Notes under the pieces: model-generated
The model's input: only the letters and a program-made list of their open reading frames with translations
Databases searched by the model: none
Told to the model about the DNA's origin: nothing
Translations under genes and position numbers: made by a program
From: Anaerolineae bacterium
Lineage (GTDB): Bacteria; Chloroflexota; Anaerolineae; Anaerolineales; Villigracilaceae
Assembly (NCBI GenBank): GCA_003130845.1
Contig: QEXW01000152.1
Coordinates: 1-48,034, forward strand
Length of the DNA stretch: 48,034 nt
Direction: 5' to 3'
In this document: one piece after another, positions 32,813-43,423 of the stretch
Position numbering within the stretch: position 1 is the stretch's first letter
How the letters are laid out: the number at the start of each line of letters is the position of its first letter

Positions 32813-34564
32813 TTAGCGATGGTTGTATAGCGCGTTGATCAGTTCTCCGCTGCTGGTATCACCAGAGAGTTCCCAGAAGAACACGCCACGTAAACCCTGG
32901 CTCTTGAGGTAGTTCATCTTGCCGGCCAGAGTGGAAGGTGTATCGTAACTCCACCAGTTATTGCCACAATACGCATAGGCCGTACCGCCGACCGTGCCGG
33001 TGGGTGGGCAGGTGTTTTTAAGGACTTTGTAATCTTCAATGCCCTTTTCATACGTGCCGTTGGCCGCGCCGGTGGCCGTGCCGCCTGGCTCAGGCTGGGT
33101 CACACCTGTCCAGCCACGCCCGTAAAAGCCAACGCCAAGCAACAGTTTGGAGGCCGGCACCCCTTTGCTCTTGTAGAGTTGAATAGCGTAATCCGAATAG
33201 AATTGAGCAATAGGAATACCCGGATAACTGTACAATGGCGAGTGCGGAGCAGTGATGTTATCCCACGCGCCGAAGAAATCGTACGTCATCACATTGTACC
33301 AATCTACATATTGCGCCGCACCACCATAATTGGCAGCGTTAATGTTGGCATAGCCGGCCGGTACAGCCGCCGTGACCAGTTCCGAACCGAAGCGGGCGCG
33401 CAGCGCAGCCATCAAGTTTTTGAAGGCTTCGGGGCCGCTGCTATCACACGTTAGACCGCACGCGTTGGGATATTCCCAGTCAATATCAATCCCATCGAAC
33501 AGGCCATTCCAGCGCGGGTCATGCAGCAAGTTGTAGCACGATTCGGCAAAGGCAGCCGGATTGGCAGCGGCTTGAGCAAACCCACCGGACCAGGTCCACC
33601 CGCCGAACGAATAGAGAATTTTGATGTGCGGGTACATTTGTTTGAGTTTGCGCAGCTGGTTGAAGTTGCCGCGCAGCGCATTGGTATCCCAAGTATCGGC
33701 GACGCCGTCTACGCTTTCGGCAGCGCTGTAGAAGCGGTCATACGCGGCATAAGGGTCACCAATGACGCAGCGGCCATTTTGCACGTTGCCAAAGGCGTAA
33801 TTGATGAAGGTCAGTTTCGCCGCCGAGCCGCTGGTAACAATGTTTTTGACGTGATAGTTGCGCGCATACACACCCCATTCCGCAAAGTAACCGCCAATTT
33901 CCACGCCAGATGATGGCTGTGAAGTCGCTGTAGGGGTAAGTGGAGCAGAAGTCGGCGTGCGGGTGGGGGTAGCGGGAACGACCGTGGGAGTGCGAGTAGC
34001 AGTAGATGGAACAGAAGTGGGGGTAGCAGTCACTCCGCCACTTGCGCAGCTCCCTTGTGGAATCCAGGGTTGGCCGCTGCCCGCTGGGCCGCTGTTCTGG
34101 TCCGGGCGCTGACCTTGAGTCCAGTAAGCGGCCTGGTAATTTACGTTGTTGTAACTGACCTGCGCGCCACCGGTGTAGGCGGTGCTGGCATTCCAGGCCG
34201 GCCAACAATTGCCGGAGGGCGTGCTGGTGGCGCCGGTCGGTGTGGATGTGCGCGTGGGGGTGTTCGTCGCAGGCAGGTTTGTACTCACCTGTGTGGGTGT
34301 GCTGGTTGGCCCACCTTGCGTAGGCACACCAAGCGACTGCCATAAAGCAGGCACATTGGGCGGCTCCCAGCCGGTCAACGAGGTATGTGCTTGCAGACAC
34401 TTATACGTTATCCCACCATACGTCACCGTGTCATTGACTGCGTAGAAGGTGTTGGGCGCCCAGGCACCCCGGTCCGCTTGCACAGGCGCAGCCCTAACCG
34501 ACATGACCATTAACAAGCTAATCAATAGCAGGGCCAGCAAGGTAAAACCGAACGAACGTTTCAT
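32813..34564 (-). CDS. Secreted GH18 chitinase with two chitin-binding modules
   Basis: A 583-residue exported enzyme. The signal peptide (about 1-26, ending near VRAA) is followed by a CBM5/12-like module (WAPNTFYAVNDTVTYGGITYKC), a Thr/Pro/Ser linker, a second module (CWPAWNASTAYTGGAQV to WIPQGSC), another linker and the GH18 catalytic domain from about 220. The active-site motif DGIDIDWEYP gives Asp357, Asp360, Asp362 and catalytic Glu364; SFGGWTWSGGF precedes it. It hydrolyses beta-1,4 bonds of chitin outside the cell. The ATG at 34564 has AAGGAG 6 nt upstream; an in-frame start at 34684 would bury the signal peptide. It is probably the output end of the chitin locus. Confidence 0.94.
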   Translation of the reverse strand: MKRSFGFTLLALLLISLLMVMSVRAAPVQADRGAWAPNTFYAVNDTVTYGGITYKCLQAHTSLTGWEPPNVPALWQSLGVPTQGGPTSTPTQVSTNLPATNTPTRTSTPTGATSTPSGNCWPAWNASTAYTGGAQVSYNNVNYQAAYWTQGQRPDQNSGPAGSGQPWIPQGSCASGGVTATPTSVPSTATRTPTVVPATPTRTPTSAPLTPTATSQPSSGVEIGGYFAEWGVYARNYHVKNIVTSGSAAKLTFINYAFGNVQNGRCVIGDPYAAYDRFYSAAESVDGVADTWDTNALRGNFNQLRKLKQMYPHIKILYSFGGWTWSGGFAQAAANPAAFAESCYNLLHDPRWNGLFDGIDIDWEYPNACGLTCDSSGPEAFKNLMAALRARFGSELVTAAVPAGYANINAANYGGAAQYVDWYNVMTYDFFGAWDNITAPHSPLYSYPGIPIAQFYSDYAIQLYKSKGVPASKLLLGVGFYGRGWTGVTQPEPGGTATGAANGTYEKGIEDYKVLKNTCPPTGTVGGTAYAYCGNNWWSYDTPSTLAGKMNYLKSQGLRGVFFWELSGDTSSGELINALYNHR

Positions 34565-34745
34565 ATACTTCTCCTTTCTAAAATCAAACCAGGCCAATTG
34601 CCTGAAGACGGACAAGTTTTGTGAAAGGAAAACAATCTGTACGGCGCTTGTTGTGTAAACAGAATATTTTTGGGAGACAAGCAAAAGTTCGCGAGGTTCG
34701 TTTCACCAGAAGCAGGAAACAGGGAACTTTTATTGTGAAAGTAGG

Positions 34746-36317
34746 CTAAGCCGGGATAGAGACCGGCAATTGACCAATTGGCTGCAACTCTCCCAGCAAA
34801 ACCCGTGCCAATGCCTGCAGCGAGGGTTCCAAAATGCTATAGGTGCAAAGATATGTATCAGCCTGCGGAAAGACCGCCAGGTCATACGGCAGGCGCAGAG
34901 CGACCAAAATAGACGGGATGCCCGTTGCGAGCAGGGCATGGACGAGCGATTGCTGGGATGTTTCCTGAAACGCGTTGAGCGTGCCGATGACGAGATAATC
35001 GTATTGCCGGGCTTGTTCGCGCAGGGCGGCAATTTCGTCTTCGGCGGGCGCAAAGGGAAAGAGAAATTCGTCCACTTCGGCGTGCCGTTCGCGCAGGAAG
35101 CGCGCCAGCGAGGGTGTGACCGAAGCGGAGGTATCTGCCGGGGTCAGGTTGACCGGGCGCGGCAGGAAAACGCCTATCCGCGCGCCGGGGCGCGGACGCA
35201 GAGGCAGCAGATTGGCCTGGTCGCGGACGAGGGTCATCGAACGTTCGGCAATCTCTTCGGCCACGCGGCGATGTTCCGCACAACCGACCACTTCCAACGG
35301 AGGTTGCTGCCAACGTGCGTTCAGCCAGGCACGCAGCGAGAGAACGCGATAGGCCGAAGCGCGTATCTCTGAGATGCTTAACCGCCGTTTTTGAGCAACC
35401 TGCAACAGCGCCTGATGCACAACATGCCAATCGGCAGGGTTGGCACTAAGCAGGAGCAGGTCTATGCCTGCGCGGGCAGCGCGGACGGCTTCTTCCCCCA
35501 GCCGGTCTTGCCGGATGGCGTGCATGTCCATCGCATCCGAAACGATGACGCCCTCGAAGCCCAGTTCACGCCGCAGCAGGGTTTGCAACACGTTGGGTGA
35601 GAGGGTGGCTGGCGGAGCATTGGGGCCATCTAACGCAGGCAGGGCCAAGTGCGCCGACATGACCAGCTGGACCCCGGCGGCAATCGCGGCGCGGAAAGGC
35701 GGCAGTTCCACGGCGCGCAGGCGTTCTAGGCTATGCGGCACGGCGGTCAGGCCGTGATGCGAGTCGCCCATCGTATCGCCATGACCCGGAAAGTGCTTGA
35801 CGGTTGCCGCCACGCCCTGGGATTGGATGCCCTGTATCAGCGCCGCGCCCAGCCGCGCCACCAGCGCCGAGTCTTCGCCAAATGAGCGGATGCCAATCAC
35901 CGGGTTGCGCGGGTTGATGTTCACGTCCACGCTGGGGGCGTAATCTACGTTGATGCCCATCGCAGCCAGTTCGCGCCCCAGCACTTGACCGGCGCGAAGG
36001 GCCAGGTCTTCGGAGCGGGTAGCGCCCAGCGCCATGTTGCCGGGCAGGGGCGTCACCCCCTCGCCAATCGCCATCAGTTGGCCGCCTTCCTGGTCGGCAG
36101 CAATCAAGAGGCGCGGCAGGCCAAGCGCACGGGCCTGGTCTTGCAACTGCGCAGTGAGATGGCGAACCTGTGCGGGCGTTTCGATATTCAGATACCGAAA
36201 CAACGTCACCCCGGCCGGATGGTAAGCGCGCAGGGCGGCGCGGATTTCGTCCGAAAGGGTCTGCTTTCCCTCGAAGGCGAGCAAGAGCCGCTGGCCGATG
36301 GCTTCCCGGAGTTCCAT
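34746..36317 (-). CDS. GH3 beta-N-acetylhexosaminidase (NagZ-like) with C-terminal extension
   Basis: A 523-residue cytoplasmic GH3 enzyme. The barrel carries the NagZ-specific loop KHFPGHGDT (174-182) with Asp185 and His187 forming the acid/base dyad, and the nucleophile Asp261 in VSDAMDM. It removes terminal N-acetylglucosamine from chito-oligosaccharides or muropeptides. Plain NagZ is about 340 residues. Here residues from about 345 form a second domain resembling the alpha/beta C-terminal domain of larger GH3 enzymes. No signal peptide is seen, so it would act on imported sugars. It starts 3 bp after the permease gene. Confidence 0.92.
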   Translation of the reverse strand: MELREAIGQRLLLAFEGKQTLSDEIRAALRAYHPAGVTLFRYLNIETPAQVRHLTAQLQDQARALGLPRLLIAADQEGGQLMAIGEGVTPLPGNMALGATRSEDLALRAGQVLGRELAAMGINVDYAPSVDVNINPRNPVIGIRSFGEDSALVARLGAALIQGIQSQGVAATVKHFPGHGDTMGDSHHGLTAVPHSLERLRAVELPPFRAAIAAGVQLVMSAHLALPALDGPNAPPATLSPNVLQTLLRRELGFEGVIVSDAMDMHAIRQDRLGEEAVRAARAGIDLLLLSANPADWHVVHQALLQVAQKRRLSISEIRASAYRVLSLRAWLNARWQQPPLEVVGCAEHRRVAEEIAERSMTLVRDQANLLPLRPRPGARIGVFLPRPVNLTPADTSASVTPSLARFLRERHAEVDEFLFPFAPAEDEIAALREQARQYDYLVIGTLNAFQETSQQSLVHALLATGIPSILVALRLPYDLAVFPQADTYLCTYSILEPSLQALARVLLGELQPIGQLPVSIPA

Positions 36318-36320
36318 GCC

Positions 36321-37169
36321 CTACCCTTTCAAGCCGGAGATGACCACGCTATCCAGGATGTAGCGCTGAGCAAAGAAGAACAGGACGATGAGCGGCACAG
36401 TGGTCAAGACGGCAGCGGTCATAATCGTCGGCCAGGGCTGCACGGTTTGGTTGATGTTGTAGAGCGTGGCGGTGAAGATGGGCAGGGTATATAAATCCAC
36501 CGTTTGCAGGTACATCAGCGGGGTGAGCAGATTGTTCCACAGCCCCACGAACAAGAAGGTGGCAATGGTGGCGAGGGGGGCTTTGCTGAGCGGCAAGATG
36601 ACTTCCCACCAGATTTGAATGTGATTCGCGCCGTCTATGAAAGCGGCTTCATCCAACTCTTTGGGAATTTGCGCCATCGCCTGGCGTAGCAGGAAAATCA
36701 TGGCCGCACCGCCCGCAAAGTAGCCAGGGATGACAATCGGGTTGAACGTGCCAACCCAGCCCAGCCGGTTGAAGAAGACGTATTGCGGCACGATGAGCGC
36801 CTGCGGCGGAATCATCATCGTCGAGAGCATCAGGAAAAACACCAGATTGCGCCCCGGCCATTCCAGACGGCTGAAGGCATAAGCGACGGCAGCAATTGAA
36901 ATCAGCGTCCCAACCATCGCCAGGCTGACGACAAAGACTGAGTTAAAGTAAGCCCGCAGGAAGTTGACGTTTTGGAAAATTCCAACATAGGCCTCCAGCG
37001 TTGGCTGGCGCGGAATCCACACAATGCCAGGCGAATTGGTCTCCTGGATGGTCTTGAAAGAAGAAGAAATCATCCAAAACAACGGGAAACTCATGGCAAC
37101 GGTGGCGGCAGTGAGCAGCAGATATAGGAGCAAACGCTTGAAAATGTGCAAGAGATGTCGAGTTTTCAT
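36321..37169 (-). CDS. Carbohydrate ABC transporter permease, MalG type
   Basis: A 282-residue inner-membrane protein with six predicted helices. The cytoplasmic EAA loop (EAAFIDGANHIQIWWEVILPLSKAPL region) that contacts the ATPase is intact. With the MalF-type permease upstream (9 bp apart) it forms the membrane channel of a family-1 sugar importer. The ATP-binding subunit is not encoded in the window, so a shared MsmX-type ATPase elsewhere is likely. The operon context points to chito-oligosaccharides or GlcNAc. Confidence 0.93.
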   Translation of the reverse strand: MKTRHLLHIFKRLLLYLLLTAATVAMSFPLFWMISSSFKTIQETNSPGIVWIPRQPTLEAYVGIFQNVNFLRAYFNSVFVVSLAMVGTLISIAAVAYAFSRLEWPGRNLVFFLMLSTMMIPPQALIVPQYVFFNRLGWVGTFNPIVIPGYFAGGAAMIFLLRQAMAQIPKELDEAAFIDGANHIQIWWEVILPLSKAPLATIATFLFVGLWNNLLTPLMYLQTVDLYTLPIFTATLYNINQTVQPWPTIMTAAVLTTVPLIVLFFFAQRYILDSVVISGLKG

Positions 37170-37178
37170 TTTTTGCTC

Positions 37179-38330
37179 CTAGTAAATGTCATAATGAACC
37201 CAGCGATTTTGCAAGGCAAACTGGACCAGGGTAACGCTCAGGATGATGACCAAGATGACCCACGAAATGGCCGCGCCATAGCCAATTTCAAAATGGCTGA
37301 AACTCTTTTGCCACAGGTAATACACCATCGAAATGGCGGAGGAGAGCAAGGGCTGGTTATCGCGGTAAAGGACAAAAATCGGCTCGAAGATTTGCAGGGT
37401 GCTAATCAGCCCCACCACCAAGTTGTAGAAGATGTAGGGGGTAAGCAGGGGCAGGGTGATTTTCCAGAAGCGTTGCCAGGGTGAAGCCCCATCCACCTGG
37501 GCGGCTTCGTGCAATTCTTTGGGGATGTTGTTCAACCCGGCGATGAAAATCAGCATCATCGCACCGCAACCCCACACCATCAGCAGGATGACCGCCATCT
37601 TCGACCAGAGCGGACTTTGCACCCAGAGTGGAACACGGTTCACTTCAGGAAAGCCCGCCTCAACCACCTTGTACATCAGATTGAAGGAGCGGTTGTTCAA
37701 CCCCAAGAAAAACGCCGCGGAGATTTCCTGAACGTAGATGATGGCACGCAAGAGTTCGCTGATACCTGGAATTTGGTAGGCCGCGCGCCACAACTGATTG
37801 ATAATGCCCGTGCCGGTGTTAAGCATCAAGCGCCAAATGAGCAGAACGGCAGTGTTGAAGCCCAGGATGACCGGCAGATAGAAAGCCATGCGGAACAAGC
37901 GTTCGCCGCGCATTTTCTGGTTGAGCAGAACGGCCAGCAAAAGCGCTGCGCCCATTTGTAGGGGTAAGCCCAGCACAGTCAGATACAAGGTGTTAAGCAG
38001 CGAAGCACGGAAACTATCATCTGCTAACAGAAGTTGACGGTAATTCTCCAGTCCAACCCATTGGGGCGGTGCGCTAGCGGTGACGCGGTAATCCGTGAAA
38101 CTCCAATACAGCGAGAACCCCAACGGGACAAGGACGAAAATCAAGAAGCCGGTAATCCAGGGAGCAGCAAAGAGATAACCGGCAAAGGCGTTTTGCTGTT
38201 CGCGCGCCGTCCGGCGGAACAAGCGGGCAGCCAACCAGGCCAGCGCAGCCAGGACAAAACTGCTGGCGAGGATGAAAAATACCGTCAACAGGGCGGTGAG
38301 CAAAACGTTCAGATACGGATTTTGGGGCAT
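37179..38330 (-). CDS. Carbohydrate ABC transporter permease, MalF type
   Basis: A 383-residue membrane protein. An extra N-terminal helix (about 8-35) and the second helix (LFAAPWITGFLIFVLVPLG) are followed by the remaining helices and the EAA loop (EAAQVDGASPWQRFWKITLPLL). Start 38330 with GGAG 8 nt upstream is chosen over an in-frame ATG at 38390, which would lie within the intergenic hairpin. It is the partner of the MalG-type permease. A hairpin separates it from the upstream binding-protein gene. Confidence 0.92.
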   Translation of the reverse strand: MPQNPYLNVLLTALLTVFFILASSFVLAALAWLAARLFRRTAREQQNAFAGYLFAAPWITGFLIFVLVPLGFSLYWSFTDYRVTASAPPQWVGLENYRQLLLADDSFRASLLNTLYLTVLGLPLQMGAALLLAVLLNQKMRGERLFRMAFYLPVILGFNTAVLLIWRLMLNTGTGIINQLWRAAYQIPGISELLRAIIYVQEISAAFFLGLNNRSFNLMYKVVEAGFPEVNRVPLWVQSPLWSKMAVILLMVWGCGAMMLIFIAGLNNIPKELHEAAQVDGASPWQRFWKITLPLLTPYIFYNLVVGLISTLQIFEPIFVLYRDNQPLLSSAISMVYYLWQKSFSHFEIGYGAAISWVILVIILSVTLVQFALQNRWVHYDIY

Positions 38331-38372
38331 GGACTTTCTCCAAGCAGTGGCACTGCAACCTGGGAGGATAAA

Positions 38373-38403
38373 AGGCGGGAGGGGTTTCATCTCCCTCCCG
38401 CCT
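38373..38403 (-). terminator. Attenuating stem-loop between binding-protein and permease genes
   Basis: 11-bp GC-rich perfect stem (38373-38383 against 38393-38403) with a 9-nt loop, followed on the minus strand by TTTTA. Such leaky terminators or 3'-end stabilisers commonly let the binding protein be made in excess over permeases. Confidence 0.75.
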
Positions 38404-38417
38404 ACATTCTGGTTGTG

Positions 38418-39803
38418 CTATTTCTTCAAGGCTGCACTGTATTCGGATTGAATCTTAGCGTTCACCTGCTCAACCGTCAGTTCTTCGGTAATCAGTTTGC
38501 CGAGCGCATCTTGCATGATGGTGGAAAGTTTGGCGGCTTCTTTAATTCCAGCAAAGCCTACACCATATTTGGCAGCCAATTCGGCTTCGCGCTTCAACTG
38601 TGGCGATTCGGTCACAAAGCCATACTGCGCATCGTTGCGGGCCGGAATCAGACCCATCGTTTCGTTCCACTTGTGATTGGCTTCTTTGCTAAAAGCTAGC
38701 TTCAGCCACTCAGCAGCCAGTTCCTTGTTCGGGCTGTATTCTGGCACTGCCAGCCAGTCATTGAAGGCCAGCACCACCGGCTTGCTGTTGGGGAAGTTGG
38801 CCGGGTCGCCGTAGAACGGTTCAATCGAGATATTTTTCCAAATCGGGCGGTCAAAGGCGGGGGCAGCCCAACCAGAGTGCGCCAAGCAGACCGCACCGTT
38901 ATCTTTGCCGGTAGCATCATCACGGTCAATCACCGAACCCTGACCAGTCGGCAGCGAACCAACGGCGTTTGCCGCCGGGCCATAAGTCGCCACGCGCATA
39001 TCATATAAGAACTTGGTCGTTGCTAAGGCTTCGGGCGAATCGAAGTTGGGCGAGCCATCGGCCTTGTAAAGTTGCCCGCCGAGCGAGTAGAACACCAAGA
39101 GCCACCACTGCCAGTCGGCCATTGAGCCAGCATCCACCGGCACGAGCGCCTGCTGTTTGAGCGAATTGGTGGCAGGGTCAATCACAGTCACTTTCTTAGC
39201 AAAATCCACCCATTCGGCGAAGTTCTTGGGCGTGCCGGTCGTCCAGCCGGCGGCTTCCATCAAATCGGTGCGGCAGAAGACGTAGCGCGGAGCGGTGAAG
39301 ATGGGCAGACCGCGCAGTTTGCCTTCGTACTTGGCGTTTTCCAGCGCCGGGCCAAAATTCTTAATATCCGGCCAAGCGGCTTCACCCAGGTAGGGTTCCA
39401 TATCGGCCAGGCTTTCGCCGTAGAGAGTGTTCATTTCCGAGCCGAGGTTGATAATATCAGGGCCTTGTCCGGCAGCGAAGAAACCGCTAAAAGTGGTATC
39501 CCAGCCAGACCAAGAGCCTTCGGTGATTTCCACTTTCACACCGGGGAACTTGGCTTCAAAGGCCGGGTTGATTTCATTTTTCAGCCATTCGATGGTAGCA
39601 GGGGTGTAATCGAGCAGGTAGATTTTGAGAACTTTGCTCTCACCGGCTGGCTGCTGGTTAGAAGCGGGTTGTTCGGGCGCTTTGGTAGGAGCCGGTTGTT
39701 CGTTGGATGCCGGCACCTGCGTGGCCGCGCCACCACCACAAGCCGCGAGCAACAAGCTGGCAAGGACCACAACCGAAAGCAAAGCAAACAAGGTCTTACG
39801 CAT
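38418..39803 (-). CDS. Sugar ABC transporter substrate-binding lipoprotein (family 1)
   Basis: A 461-residue lipoprotein. The signal peptide ends in LAAC with lipidated Cys22, followed by a Gln/Pro/Ala-rich tether (about 25-57) and an extracellular solute-binding protein family 1 fold. The ligand is not readable from sequence. The neighbours (chitinase, GH3 hexosaminidase, PIG-L deacetylase, ROK proteins) suggest chito-oligosaccharides or GlcNAc. AAGGAG lies before the ATG. The 103-bp gap upstream (39804-39906) has no copy of the operator found at 43373. Confidence 0.94.
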   Translation of the reverse strand: MRKTLFALLSVVVLASLLLAACGGGAATQVPASNEQPAPTKAPEQPASNQQPAGESKVLKIYLLDYTPATIEWLKNEINPAFEAKFPGVKVEITEGSWSGWDTTFSGFFAAGQGPDIINLGSEMNTLYGESLADMEPYLGEAAWPDIKNFGPALENAKYEGKLRGLPIFTAPRYVFCRTDLMEAAGWTTGTPKNFAEWVDFAKKVTVIDPATNSLKQQALVPVDAGSMADWQWWLLVFYSLGGQLYKADGSPNFDSPEALATTKFLYDMRVATYGPAANAVGSLPTGQGSVIDRDDATGKDNGAVCLAHSGWAAPAFDRPIWKNISIEPFYGDPANFPNSKPVVLAFNDWLAVPEYSPNKELAAEWLKLAFSKEANHKWNETMGLIPARNDAQYGFVTESPQLKREAELAAKYGVGFAGIKEAAKLSTIMQDALGKLITEELTVEQVNAKIQSEYSAALKK

Positions 39804-39906
39804 GGTTTCTTCTCCTTCTTACAGATGTGAGAGTGAATGAAGTTTCTGGAACATCAAAAAACGAGAGAGTTGATTATCGTGTGAGAATACACCACCTCCT
39901 ATTCGT

Positions 39907-40758
39907 TTAAGTGTTCACCCGCCGAATACGTCCTACAACATCTTGCGCAAAGCGTTCGATGAACGTCGCAATGAAATCGGCCAAGTCTAAGTGCGGGTCA
40001 TTCATCAGAGCGGTCATGTCAATTCCATAAGAAAGTCCGGCGGCATTGTCCACGCCATGTGACTCAAAGTACGTGGCATTCGCGCGGCGACGACCCATCG
40101 AAGCCAGGTCATACCGCTTACCGCCTACAATTTGAGAATCAAAGACACCCAACAAAGCAAATTGCAAGTTTTCATGCGCAGAAAGGTCCATCGCCACCTT
40201 GTCCTCGTCTTGCACCCAGTCCAACGCACGCCACACCTCGCACCCAATCAAGCGCGCCGGGCGCTCTTCGGGCGCGAGTTGACGCAGTGCCTGCACCACA
40301 CGCGAGGCCACTGCCACGTGCGTATCGTGCTTATCGGCAAAGTTGTGGGTATAGACCACCTGCGGGCGCGTAAGCCGCAAAATCTGGAGCAGGTCTTCCA
40401 CCGGCGCGGTTTGGGCGCAATCTTTGACCACCTTGCTGGGGTAATCGAGCAAGATTTGGGCGGCGTAATCGCCTACAAAAGCCGCTTTGCGCTGTTCCTT
40501 GAAACGCACCAGGCGCATTTCTTCATCGGTGTACTGCTCATACAGACTATTGCGCGGCGAACCACGTCCATCGGTGACGACAACGCCGGTGAACCATTTT
40601 TCGGGATGTTGAAAGCATTCCAGAATCGGCGCGGCGGCCATGATTTCAATATCGTCCTGGTGAGCGGCAATGCACAGATGCGTGGTGCGCGCCAGGGCTA
40701 GTTCGGCAGCCAGACCATCAGGGATGTAGAGTTCGGCAGTTTCGAGGTGGAATTTCAT
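39907..40758 (-). CDS. PIG-L/LmbE family de-N-acetylase
   Basis: A 283-residue zinc-dependent deacetylase. The family motif AHQDDIE (32-38) gives His33 and Asp36, and DKHDTH (141-146) gives the third ligand His146. Family members remove acetyl from GlcNAc-containing substrates: GlcNAc-PI, mycothiol and bacillithiol precursors, and archaeal diacetylchitobiose. Its position in a chitin locus, 8 bp after the ROK gene, points to N-deacetylation of GlcNAc or chitobiose after uptake. That is inference; a thiol-cofactor role cannot be excluded. AGGA precedes the ATG. Confidence 0.88.
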   Translation of the reverse strand: MKFHLETAELYIPDGLAAELALARTTHLCIAAHQDDIEIMAAAPILECFQHPEKWFTGVVVTDGRGSPRNSLYEQYTDEEMRLVRFKEQRKAAFVGDYAAQILLDYPSKVVKDCAQTAPVEDLLQILRLTRPQVVYTHNFADKHDTHVAVASRVVQALRQLAPEERPARLIGCEVWRALDWVQDEDKVAMDLSAHENLQFALLGVFDSQIVGGKRYDLASMGRRRANATYFESHGVDNAAGLSYGIDMTALMNDPHLDLADFIATFIERFAQDVVGRIRRVNT

Positions 40759-40766
40759 GGTGTTTC

Positions 40767-42173
40767 CTATGCTGGAGAAGTTTGTCGTTGCAAAGCGGGC
40801 AAACTGGCCGCCGCCACCGCCTGCCCCACACGCCGAATCTTCTCATCCGGCAAGTGCAGGGCAATTCGCCCGGCGAGTTCGGGAAACTCGGCCTGCAAGA
40901 CGGCGCGCGCGCCTTCCAGGAGCAAATTGCCGCCCCGCCCCGAAGTACAGCGGCCCAAAATAAGCAGATGGCGGATTTCATAAAATTCGGCGAAATGCGC
41001 CAGGCTATAACCAAGATACACGCCCATCGTGCGCCAGATGTCTTCCGCGCCGGGGTGACCGGCTTCAAGATAGGCTTGAGCCGCTTTGAGTTTCTCTGCG
41101 TCGGTCACGCCTTCGGGCAGAGAAATGCCAGCGCGCGGCGCAAGGCGGAAGACACACTGCTGGGAGAAGTAGGTCGCCCCACAGCCAAAGTCTTTCGACC
41201 ATTCTTCTTCCGGCGCCTCGGGCTGGTAATCTACCGGCGCAAAGGCCAATTCGTTCAGCCAGCCGGTAATCTGCCCGTCGGGGTTCACATAACCCGCTGC
41301 CAGGCTGGAACCAAGCGCAATACCCAGAATACCGTTGTCTTCGATGGACATCGAACCGGCCAGAGCGGTGACATCGCCATCGTTGATGATTTCCAGCGGC
41401 GCACCCATCTCCTGTTCCAGCCGCAGGAAAAGCGTGCGAATTTCCTGGTAGCGTTCTGGCGGCACAGCGCGGAAGAGCGAGGCCACCATCGGGCGATTAT
41501 TGACATAAATGCCGGCAGAGCTGCCACCAATCGCATCCACCCGCGGCAATTTCGCAGCAGCGGTGCGCAGAGCGGTGAGAATTTCGTAGTAGTGATAGGC
41601 CGGATCACTGTGCTTTTTGGGTTCCCAAATGACTTCTTCGCTGTAAACCACCTGACCGTCTATCACAGCGCTCACTTTGCGGTCAGATGCCCCCAAATCG
41701 AAGCCAATGCGGCAACCATCCAGGTGACGGCCCAGGTTCTTGCCAATTTCAAAAGCAGGTGGCACCTGCTCGGGACGGCAGGCAATCACCTCGAAAGGAC
41801 GTTGATAGACCTGCTCACCCATGAAGCGGGCATCGAATTCACGCACGCCACCGATGCGATATTGCTCGCGCAGGTATTCGCCCACCGCAGGCGCGCCACC
41901 CACATACACGCGAAAGGCACCCCGCTGCCAGAGCAAGAATTTCAAGATTCTCTCGGCATACGGCAAAGTGTATTCAAAGAGCGGATGCCTTTCGGGCAAG
42001 ATACGCATCTCAAAGCGCGAAAGTTCACCGTCTGCTCGCTCCAAGCCCAAAATGAGCAACGCACTTTCCGATTCAGTCAAGGCCCGAAAAGCCCGGCTAA
42101 CAAGCGCCGGTGGCAAAAACCCCGGGTCCAGGGGAGGCAAAATACGCGGCGGAGAAATTTTGAGATGTTGCAT
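40767..42173 (-). CDS. Long ROK/ASKHA-fold protein, possible sugar kinase
   Basis: A 468-residue protein. Residues from about 155 show the ROK kinase pattern: GFDLGASDRK (157-166, phosphate-binding loop), INDGD with Asn264-Asp265 at the catalytic position, and LGSSLAAGYVNPDGQ. The usual CxCGxxGCxE zinc motif and GExGH are absent. A 150-residue N-terminal region (PFEVIACRPEQVP at its end) has no family I recognise. The ATG at 42173 lies 5 nt after the upstream regulator's stop without a Shine-Dalgarno, implying coupled translation. Likely a kinase for GlcNAc, glucosamine or a disaccharide, but activity is unproven. Confidence 0.72.
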   Translation of the reverse strand: MQHLKISPPRILPPLDPGFLPPALVSRAFRALTESESALLILGLERADGELSRFEMRILPERHPLFEYTLPYAERILKFLLWQRGAFRVYVGGAPAVGEYLREQYRIGGVREFDARFMGEQVYQRPFEVIACRPEQVPPAFEIGKNLGRHLDGCRIGFDLGASDRKVSAVIDGQVVYSEEVIWEPKKHSDPAYHYYEILTALRTAAAKLPRVDAIGGSSAGIYVNNRPMVASLFRAVPPERYQEIRTLFLRLEQEMGAPLEIINDGDVTALAGSMSIEDNGILGIALGSSLAAGYVNPDGQITGWLNELAFAPVDYQPEAPEEEWSKDFGCGATYFSQQCVFRLAPRAGISLPEGVTDAEKLKAAQAYLEAGHPGAEDIWRTMGVYLGYSLAHFAEFYEIRHLLILGRCTSGRGGNLLLEGARAVLQAEFPELAGRIALHLPDEKIRRVGQAVAAASLPALQRQTSPA

Positions 42174-42178
42174 AATGT

Positions 42179-43351
42179 TCACTTCGCTTGCGAAAAGAGC
42201 AGAGAATAATCTTCCAACAACAAGTGCGCAGCGGCACCCAGAATACAAGCATCATTATCAAATTTGCCCAATTCAACTTGAACCTGTCCGGTCATCTGTT
42301 CCAAAGCCGAGCGGCGCATCGCCTGGCGGATACTCTCCAGCCAAAGCTGACCAAAACAAGTCATCTCACCGGTGAGCAAAATGTGATGAATATCAAAAGC
42401 GGCAACCAACGCCCCAAGCGCTTCACCAAGGGCTTGCCCGGCTTGCACAACCGCCTCCCGCGTCTTGACATCTCCACGCTCAAATTGCTCACAAACCTCC
42501 GACAGAGTAGAAAGCTTTTCCACCGAACCAGCCTGCCACTGCGCCATAATTGCCCGCGCACTGGCCAAAGTTTCCAAACACCCTACGCGCCCACAACGAC
42601 ACAAACGGTCATTACCGCGCACCGGCACATGACCAATCTCTCCCGCTCCACCCCCATCACCCTGAAAAAGTTTGCCATCAATCAAAATACCGGCACCCAC
42701 ACCTTGGCTGACGTTGACCACAATCAGATTGCGGTGCGCACGATGACCGCTATAAGAAAATTCACCAATCGCAGCAGCCTGACTATCATTCAGCACCGAC
42801 ACCGGCAACCCATACCGCTGCGAGAGCAGCTTACCGAGCGGTAGATTCTTCCAAGCCAAATTAACCGCCTGAATCACCATACCCTGGCGCGTATTGACCA
42901 GCCCGGGCGTACCAACCCCAATTCCAATTAACGGCTGCCATCGGCTATGCACCAAGCGATCAAGCAGCTCATAGACACGCTGCACAGCAAGCTCGCCATC
43001 GTGATTTTCCGAAGGCACCTCATACGTTTCCTTAATCTCGCCCCGCAAATTCGTGACCGCGCCGACAAACTTATCTTGCGCTAAATTCAAACCAATCAGA
43101 TAGCGCGCATCGGCTACCAATTGCAACAAAATAGAAGGCTTTCCACCGCTCGAAACACTCGTGCCGACCTCCTCGACTAAGCCACCTTCTATCAAATCAG
43201 CCACCATATCCGAAACCGTAGTGCGCGTCAGATGCGTTCGACGAGCAATTTCAATCCGGCTGGTCATACCGCTTTCATAAATCATGCGAAACACCAAGTT
43301 CAGATTATGCAGACGGGCTTGTTGCTGATTGGCTTTTTGCGAGGGAAGCAT
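42179..43351 (-). CDS. ROK family transcriptional repressor (NagC/XylR type)
   Basis: A 390-residue regulator. The N-terminal winged helix (about 17-70, SRIEIARRTHLTRTTVSDMVADL) binds DNA. The ROK sensor domain has GEIGH at 237-241 and the zinc motif CRCGRVGCLE at 251-260. The kinase phosphate loop is altered (GLNLAQDK in place of DxGGT), so it is a sensor rather than a kinase. NagC-type ROK repressors release DNA on binding an amino-sugar derivative. It heads the chitin operon, and a palindrome downstream of its promoter is a probable autoregulatory operator. The ATG follows AGAGAGG. Confidence 0.93.
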   Translation of the reverse strand: MLPSQKANQQQARLHNLNLVFRMIYESGMTSRIEIARRTHLTRTTVSDMVADLIEGGLVEEVGTSVSSGGKPSILLQLVADARYLIGLNLAQDKFVGAVTNLRGEIKETYEVPSENHDGELAVQRVYELLDRLVHSRWQPLIGIGVGTPGLVNTRQGMVIQAVNLAWKNLPLGKLLSQRYGLPVSVLNDSQAAAIGEFSYSGHRAHRNLIVVNVSQGVGAGILIDGKLFQGDGGGAGEIGHVPVRGNDRLCRCGRVGCLETLASARAIMAQWQAGSVEKLSTLSEVCEQFERGDVKTREAVVQAGQALGEALGALVAAFDIHHILLTGEMTCFGQLWLESIRQAMRRSALEQMTGQVQVELGKFDNDACILGAAAHLLLEDYSLLFSQAK

Positions 43352-43372
43352 AACGAACCTCTCTGGTTAGTT

Positions 43373-43385
43373 AGTCCATTGGACT
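43373..43385. promoter_or_regulatory. Palindromic operator, probable ROK repressor site
   Basis: AGTCCATTGGACT is a perfect 6-1-6 inverted repeat. It lies 9 bp downstream of the -10 box and 21 bp before the repressor start codon, so bound repressor would cover the transcription start. Target assignment is inference from position. Confidence 0.7.
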
Positions 43386-43394
43386 TACAAAGCA

Positions 43395-43423
43395 ATTGTA
43401 ACAAAATTCTCTACCAAATACAA
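43395..43423 (-). promoter_or_regulatory. Promoter of the ROK regulator/chitin operon
   Basis: On the minus strand: TTGTAT (-35, 43418-43423), 17-bp spacer, TACAAT (-10, 43395-43400) preceded by TGT, an extended -10. The operator palindrome follows directly. Confidence 0.6.

Follow-up and report, generated by a model that had tools for sequence, protein, structure and literature searches.

In this study, we analyzed a DNA stretch of 48,034 nucleotides from an Anaerolineae bacterium (the window) and propose that its PIG-L (LmbE-like) protein is a GlcNAc-6-phosphate deacetylase, an activity inferred from the exchange of PIG-L with NagA beside one kinase-like gene. According to the preferred reading, to which we assign a probability of about 0.6, the divergent ROK-fold kinase-like protein of the locus, designated KIN, phosphorylates GlcNAc, PIG-L stands in for NagA, and a SIS-type deaminase acts next.

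Gene order and regulation of the locus

The first-pass annotation had described a chitin-type locus of eight genes on one strand, and both coordinates and family profiles confirmed this. All eight genes between 32813 and 43423 lie on the minus strand in the order, from the upstream end, ROK repressor, KIN, PIG-L, solute-binding protein (SBP), permease 1, permease 2, GH3 and GH18. The following features were assigned:

43366–43392, no strand: 27-bp palindrome, proposed ROK-repressor operator (PWM score and single genome match)
42179–43351, minus: ROK-family repressor with N-terminal winged helix (PF00480, 1.8e-61; HTH models weak)
40767–42173, minus: KIN, candidate GlcNAc kinase (predicted ROK-kinase fold; NagA or PIG-L neighbour in relatives)
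39907–40758, minus: PIG-L (LmbE-like) deacetylase, candidate GlcNAc-6-phosphate deacetylase (PF02585, 1.1e-16; metal-site residues; fold)
38418–39803, minus: extracellular SBP, lipoprotein-like start judged by eye (PF01547, SBP_bac_1, 4.8e-25)
37179–38390, minus: ABC permease 1 (PF00528, BPD_transp_1, 1.1e-12)
36321–37169, minus: ABC permease 2 (PF00528, BPD_transp_1, 6.8e-20)
34746–36317, minus: GH3, candidate NagZ-like beta-N-acetylhexosaminidase (PF00933, 2.5e-85; PF01915, 3.8e-09)
32813–34564, minus: candidate secreted GH18 chitinase with two CBM5/12 modules (PF00704, 2.6e-79; PF02839, two stretches)

According to the coordinates, the intergenic gaps are 5 nt (ROK–KIN), 8 nt (KIN–PIG-L), 103 nt (PIG-L–SBP), 27 nt (SBP–permease 1), 9 nt (permease 1–permease 2), 3 nt (permease 2–GH3) and about 180 nt (GH3–GH18). 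Promoter and terminator scans gave no excess over shuffles. For GH18, translation probably starts at an internal, signal-peptide-like ATG near 34564, which was preferred by eye over a TTG at 34684. GH3 passed the Pfam GH3 test, scored 194.7 bits with the NagZ-type model NF003740 (below the cut-off of 207) and contains a KHFPGHG...DSH stretch read by eye. The best NCBIfam model for the SBP was chitin_NgcE (TIGR03851), with 37.2 bits far below its cut-off of 399.65. The locus is an amino-sugar locus, very likely serving for chitin in the source genome: the secreted GH18 would cut chitin, an ABC importer with its ATPase encoded elsewhere would take up chito-oligosaccharides or GlcNAc, and the NagZ-like GH3, a glycosidase fitting an N-acetylated substrate, would free GlcNAc.

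The ROK repressor scored below the cut-offs of the NagC and Mlc models. Between its gene and a divergent mreB-like gene, a conserved palindrome was found, which looks like the operator of this repressor as predicted from sequence, so that the repressor may control the row via this site. The palindrome has a PWM score of 38.5 with a matrix whose own site set included the window's site; no other site in the window reached 6, and the maximum in 20 shuffles was 10.8. Genome-wide, one match was obtained at up to three mismatches and none with a control pattern. Control of the unlinked SIS gene described below by the same operator was rejected because of this single match and because its contig (L055) has no site scoring 9 or more.

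PIG-L and NagA as alternative neighbours of KIN

With a start placed by eye near 42173, KIN comprises 468 aa (493 aa if translated from an upstream TTG). The window protein had no Pfam or NCBIfam match, and KIN of a relative (L092) had no Pfam match either. The predicted structure, however, has a ROK fold, with the GlcNAc kinase NagK of Plesiomonas (7p9l) as best match (Z 25.1, rmsd 2.7, 285 aligned residues), covered by KIN residues 152–465. The fold score of 7p9l ties with those of ManNAc kinases, glucokinases and other ROK proteins; the fold thus cannot choose among GlcNAc, ManNAc and glucose, which counts against the preferred reading. A PDB sequence search with KIN alone gave no matches, while a search with a KIN profile gave seven sequences (best 3.3e-05), with ROK proteins or sugar kinases in the top five places. 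As placed by motif, KIN shares with NagK an Asn-Asp pair and a Glu but carries a Phe instead of NagK His157. It also differs by about 150 additional N-terminal residues and by the missing Pfam ROK match. ROK proteins are marked by the zinc motif CxCGxxGCxE, which is absent from the KIN alignment. From this predicted fold and from the NagA or PIG-L neighbours in relatives, we propose KIN as a putative GlcNAc kinase.

Neighbouring genes were counted for the 80 KIN loci most similar to that of the window, the best 80 of at least 579 and not a fair sample. Within 4 kb of KIN, PIG-L was found in 54 of these 80 loci, spread over several phyla, NagA in nine, and both together in none (Fisher p 1.3e-5, uncorrected for kinship). 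Neither deacetylase was present near KIN in 11 of the same best 80 of at least 579 loci, and one genome (G184) has a PIG-L of the same type and no detectable KIN; both observations count against the preferred reading. The KIN-linked NagA proteins are genuine, exceeding the TIGR00221 cut-off in 10 of 10 such genomes. Three changes between PIG-L and NagA are needed on the KIN tree, and the starred branches also force at least this number. When 55 PIG-L-linked rows of the KIN alignment were compared with 11 NagA-linked ones, no position differed in its conservation, and 97 positions are at least 95% identical in both groups.

NagA requires GlcNAc-6-phosphate as substrate. KIN next to NagA should therefore produce this compound, which makes deacetylation after phosphorylation more likely also for the loci with PIG-L. 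The first-pass annotation had suggested that PIG-L directly deacetylates imported GlcNAc or chitobiose; its placement of PIG-L in the deacetylation slot is supported, whereas the order of steps is challenged by the NagA neighbours of KIN. The main rival to our reading retains that order: PIG-L would form GlcN from free GlcNAc, KIN would be a GlcN kinase, and GlcN-6-phosphate would pass to the SIS deaminase, making this a bacterial counterpart to the archaeal route. Such a sequence is compatible with the SIS deaminase, which suits either order, and with the archaeal PIG-L enzyme Dac, which is among the closest folds of PIG-L and deacetylates (GlcNAc)2 and GlcNAc according to PMC6566704. We nevertheless consider it rather unlikely, since KIN relatives adjoin true NagA and KIN shows no position indicative of a substrate change, although a kinase active on both GlcN and GlcNAc would cancel the objection from the NagA neighbours.

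Membership of PIG-L in its superfamily is clear from PF02585 (61.9 bits, cut-off 28.2). Its metal-site residues H33, D35, D36 and H147 are kept in 55 of 55 KIN-linked members, and the 110 residues between D36 and H147 agree with the PIG-L/LmbE hallmark of HxDD plus a distant His, with 97–148 residues between ligands 2 and 3, as given in PMC4101496. The best profile matches are BshB proteins, and BshB is also closest in predicted fold (Z 16.5). Among the closest folds is also Dac (Z about 15), to whose structures the identity is only 14–18%. Since BshB and Dac, which share fold and metal-site motif with PIG-L, act on unphosphorylated GlcNAc compounds, this resemblance counts against the preferred reading. 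In the PIG-L model (mean pLDDT 71.9), residues 200–234 are below 50 and a phosphate pocket could not be placed.

The likeness to BshB would fit a role in bacillithiol-type thiol or other biosynthesis with an incidental gene position. This explanation is extremely improbable: the BshB1 and BshB2 models (TIGR04001 and TIGR04000) gave 33.5 bits (cut-off 182.5) and 26.3 bits (cut-off 195.25), so far too low that thiol biosynthesis was rejected, PIG-L adjoins KIN in several phyla as counted above, and the genome context is GlcNAc catabolism. The likeness to Dac, together with GH18 and the importer in the row, would fit a step in which chitobiose or longer oligomers, once imported, are deacetylated before they are cleaved. 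The glycosidase of the row is a NagZ-like GH3, however, and most loci with KIN and PIG-L have no chitinase nearby; a single-sequence profile detected GH18 in two of the best 80 of at least 579 loci, on the opposite strand. This Dac-like step was demoted from first choice because NagA occupies the same slot beside KIN, and it appears very unlikely.

NagA, NagB and a proposed SIS-type deaminase

The source genome is rated 100% complete, yet it is split into 159 contigs. The NagA model TIGR00221 found two fragments only (best 23.0 bits, cut-off 225.65). A single genome-wide match to the NagB model (50.9 bits) was rejected as NagB-I, being a 6-phosphogluconolactonase (TIGR01198, 212.9 bits, cut-off 124.45). 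The absence of NagA and NagB noted for the window thus extends, for NagA and NagB-I, to the whole genome as searched. None of eight genomes with KIN and PIG-L, the source genome and seven relatives, had NagA above the cut-off. Three further counts weigh against the preferred reading: in the window's family, NagA occurs in just 3 of 12 genomes without PIG-L and is therefore often missing anyway; among 31 other PIG-L-linked genomes, NagA is present elsewhere above the cut-off in 10 and as a long match below it in 6; and the phylum-level association is weak (1/9 versus 137/292, p 0.04 uncorrected). Mutual exclusion of PIG-L and NagA at the genome level was set aside as weak.

A two-SIS-domain, NagB-II-like protein is encoded on another contig of the source genome (L055:8992-10026), and such a gene shares the KIN gene row in five relatives (L035, L037, L038, L039 and L040), with another short-spaced gene following it in L037, L038 and L039. 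Among the best 80 of at least 579 KIN loci, it lies at most 8 kb from KIN in 14 of 54 with PIG-L and 2 of 9 with NagA. The protein (345 aa) contains two PF01380 stretches, no other Pfam family and no glutaminase domain. It reached 226.7 of 430 bits with the NagB-II model NF046059 and more with the isomerase part of GlmS models (245.8 of 381 and 233.6 of 418), all below cut-off; the higher GlmS scores count against the preferred reading. In that reading, KIN would convert GlcNAc to GlcNAc-6-phosphate, PIG-L, replacing NagA, would remove the acetyl group, and the deaminase would convert GlcN-6-phosphate to fructose-6-phosphate.

Comparison with known pathways and implications

The deacetylase of the Shewanella GlcNAc/chitin pathway (NagK, NagA, NagB-II) is NagA. 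With this pathway, the proposed scheme has in common non-PTS import, a kinase, a deacetylase and a SIS-type deaminase, as outlined for Shewanella in PMC2996990. It differs by a kinase from another family, PIG-L for NagA and an ABC importer. The archaeal chitin route uses the SIS-type deaminase GlmD, which resembles the SIS step proposed here. This route (ChiA, Dac, GlmA; Thermococcus) also combines GH18 with a PIG-L deacetylase, according to PMC6566704, while the window has GH3 where archaea use the GH35 enzyme GlmA, plus a ROK-fold kinase. Unrelated enzyme pairs are known for the kinase (NagK1/NagK2) and the deaminase (NagB1/NagB2), and a 2017 survey, where it enumerates pairs of this kind, gives none for the deacetylase (PMC5583593). 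A precedent for PIG-L as GlcNAc-6-phosphate deacetylase was not found in the literature searched, which was covered mostly at title and abstract level and included PMC6566704, PMC4101496, PMC5583593, PMC10031466, PMC5507952 and PMC2996990.

Beyond the window, we lean slightly towards the view that the members of this PIG-L subfamily truly deacetylate GlcNAc-6-phosphate. They would then match NagA in function without being related to it, and the two enzymes would have been swapped three or more times next to a single conserved and so far unnamed GlcNAc-kinase family, in several bacterial phyla and perhaps one archaeon. If this is true, genomes that were taken as non-users of GlcNAc or chitin for want of nagA would need to be re-read, and functions would be gained both by a set of PIG-L genes and by a divergent kinase family without Pfam or NCBIfam match.

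Gene row and candidate kinase

The gene row described by the first-pass annotation is real. The genes concerned are as follows:

43351 down to 32813, minus strand: ROK repressor, KIN (ROK-fold kinase-like protein, 40767..42173), PIG-L (LmbE-like deacetylase, 39907..40758), binding protein, two permeases, GH3 and GH18 (gene calls and family searches)
Start 43493, divergent from the row: mreB-like gene (by eye)
L055:8992-10029, another contig of the own genome: two-SIS-domain protein, 345 aa

Intergenic gaps are 3 to 103 nt as far as GH3, with GH18 about 180 nt further; an ABC ATPase gene is absent from the row. KIN matched no Pfam or NCBIfam family. Its predicted model (mean pLDDT 86.7) has the ROK fold across residues 152-465, with Z scores of 25.1 to GlcNAc kinase (7p9l), 25.0 to ManNAc kinase (6jdb), 24.7 to a ROK repressor (5f7r) and 24.0 to glucokinase (3vgk); as these scores are tied, the fold cannot pick the sugar substrate. 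About 150 well-predicted residues precede it (residues 1-150, window 41724-42173) and are covered by few structural matches, while two hexokinase rows of the structure comparison span residues 14-465. The GlcNAc contacts described for PsNagK are S78, N104, D105, E154, H157 and D187 (PMC10031466). By motif only, KIN N264, D265 and E308 correspond to N104, D105 and E154, whereas F311 stands at the place of H157.

PIG-L and NagA beside KIN

Scanning genome contigs with a KIN alignment gave at least 579 relatives among 591 stretches, and the best 80 were kept, including two loci already in the comparison (L070 of G248, L080 of G046). Neighbours within 4 kb were identified with profiles from seven PIG-L, three NagA and four SIS sequences and one each for the others. 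Among these best 80 of at least 579 loci, window-type PIG-L adjoined KIN in 54, NagA in 9, both in none and neither in 17. PIG-L was always on the strand of KIN (54/54), mostly a few bases apart. The PIG-L loci are labelled Chloroflexota (26), Bacillota (6), Armatimonadota (5), Hydrogenedentota (4), Acidobacteriota (3), Verrucomicrobiota (2), Campylobacterota (1), Bathyarchaeota (1) or unlabelled (6), the NagA loci Bacillota (5), Chloroflexota (3) and Acidobacteriota (1); most are MAGs, so that lone odd labels may reflect misbinning. L142, titled Candidatus Bathyarchaeota and carrying KIN and PIG-L, would reflect either transfer into an archaeon or misbinning.

Five of the 17 remaining loci carry a more distant PIG-L, from another subfamily (cluster 14), after KIN, namely L120, L125, L131 and L147 (Verrucomicrobia-type) and L143 (Armatimonadetes), perhaps a second recruitment; L120, the one subjected to the Pfam test, passes it as PIG-L. 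In L111, NagA lies about 6 kb away in the same direction. The other 11 have neither distant PIG-L nor NagA, and the contig ends at KIN in L114 and L122. In G176, another PIG-L (L043:7742-8389; 25.6% identity to the window's) and a methyltransferase-like gene (by eye) lie downstream of KIN, and the genome has two NagA genes.

In the own genome (3.77 Mb, 159 contigs, rated 100% complete), genome-wide profile searches found NagA only as two fragments, the best at 23.0 bits, and gave a single NagB-model match, a 6-phosphogluconolactonase. Across 30 genomes, NagA exceeded the cut-off in 0/8 with KIN and PIG-L, 5/6 with KIN but without PIG-L (the sixth, G031, was 1.8 bits short) and 7/16 without KIN; it adjoins KIN in three of the six (G058, G187, G264). 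In a wider set, all 10 genomes of NagA loci (L111 included) exceeded the cut-off. For 31 of the 54 PIG-L loci, the genomes had NagA elsewhere above the cut-off (10), a long match of 167-203 bits below it (6), or fragments or none (15). The window's PIG-L subfamily occurred in nine of 301 genomes of the phylum, eight with adjoining KIN; NagA (E up to 1e-40) was found in 1/9 of these versus 137/292 others (p 0.04, uncorrected). In the ninth, G184 (PIG-L at L149:532-1581), KIN was found neither in the 729 contig bases preceding PIG-L nor by search, and NagA is present. As genome-level counts point both ways, the exclusion is a property of the KIN locus, not of whole genomes.

Likely order of steps and the candidate deaminase

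A quick KIN tree of 83 rows (80 loci, the window, and the NagA-adjoining KIN of G058 and G187; 17 unlabelled) required 3 label changes among 66 labelled rows, also the minimum forced by its starred branches; shuffles averaged 10.4. No column was conserved differently (at least 85%) between 55 PIG-L and 11 NagA rows, and 97 were at least 95% alike in both.

NagA acts on GlcNAc-6-phosphate, and therefore KIN adjoining NagA should be a GlcNAc kinase. Since KIN gives no sign of change with a PIG-L partner, PIG-L would most simply encounter the same product as NagA does. The first-pass annotation had proposed PIG-L for the deacetylation slot, which the 54 loci support more widely than was then known, and had it act directly on imported GlcNAc or chitobiose. 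Deacetylation first has a precedent in archaeal Dac, as described in PMC6566704, but kinase first is more likely. The PIG-L metal site is complete in all 55 KIN-linked members, and R69 is invariant in these and in five divergent ones. Six PIG-L matches exceed the cut-off in the own genome; R69 is absent from the four others compared (L005 not among them). R69 may hint at phosphate binding, although its distribution could also be due to chance or to some different role.

The SIS protein resembles both the GlmS isomerase part and NagB-II, scoring 245.8 and 233.6 bits with GlmS models and 226.7 with NF046059 (NagB-II), all under cut-off. A domain search found no glutaminase domain in its 345 aa. 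Its nearest matches of known structure include 3fj1, a putative phosphosugar isomerase (1.5e-46), and GlcN-6-P deaminase 8eol (4.1e-43), with a GlmS structure close behind (2.7e-42). Equivalents lie downstream in one row with KIN and PIG-L in L035, L037, L038, L039 and L040, one further gene following in L037, L038 and L039. On the own-genome contig (C125), the SIS gene faces a convergent GH4 gene (PF02056, L055:10109-11404), and next to that comes what reads by eye as a LacI-type regulator (L055:11433-12488). In G072, a second amino-sugar locus (L056:8698-18549) surrounds the SIS gene, with a YdjC/ChbG-like deacetylase (PF04794), a kinase of weak NagK_SO3507 likeness (61.7 of 370 bits) and, by eye, GH18-like, GH4-like and ABC genes. 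In G187, a SIS_2-domain sugar isomerase-like protein (L046:8996-9721) sits between NagA and KIN.

Repressor, chitin setting and core

Of 27 loci in which a ROK gene precedes KIN, window included, 24 match a 27-bp palindrome (consensus CTTTGTAAGTTCAATGAACTTACAAAG) at no fewer than 18 positions, the exceptions being L077, L072 and L100; the NagA-type L111 also carries a site. When 12 genomes were scanned for a related 25-bp pattern with up to 3 mismatches, ten contained a single copy, G269 contained two, and G072, where KIN lacks a preceding ROK gene, contained none; the reversed control matched in none of the 12. This distribution fits a dedicated repressor that would bind here and regulate itself. 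The second G269 match (G269:C13:11980-12004), distant from the KIN locus, is a possible further ROK target.

GH18 stands in the window's row; among the best 80 of at least 579 loci, L090 and L097 were the sole cases with GH18, and there it lies on the opposite strand. The importer is swapped for an unlike one in L070, L071, L078 and L080 (binding-protein scores 22-42 versus 896 in L069). The core set is ROK, KIN, PIG-L and SIS, for which chitin is the own genome's setting, and the window locus would be an altered version of the known GlcNAc pathway.
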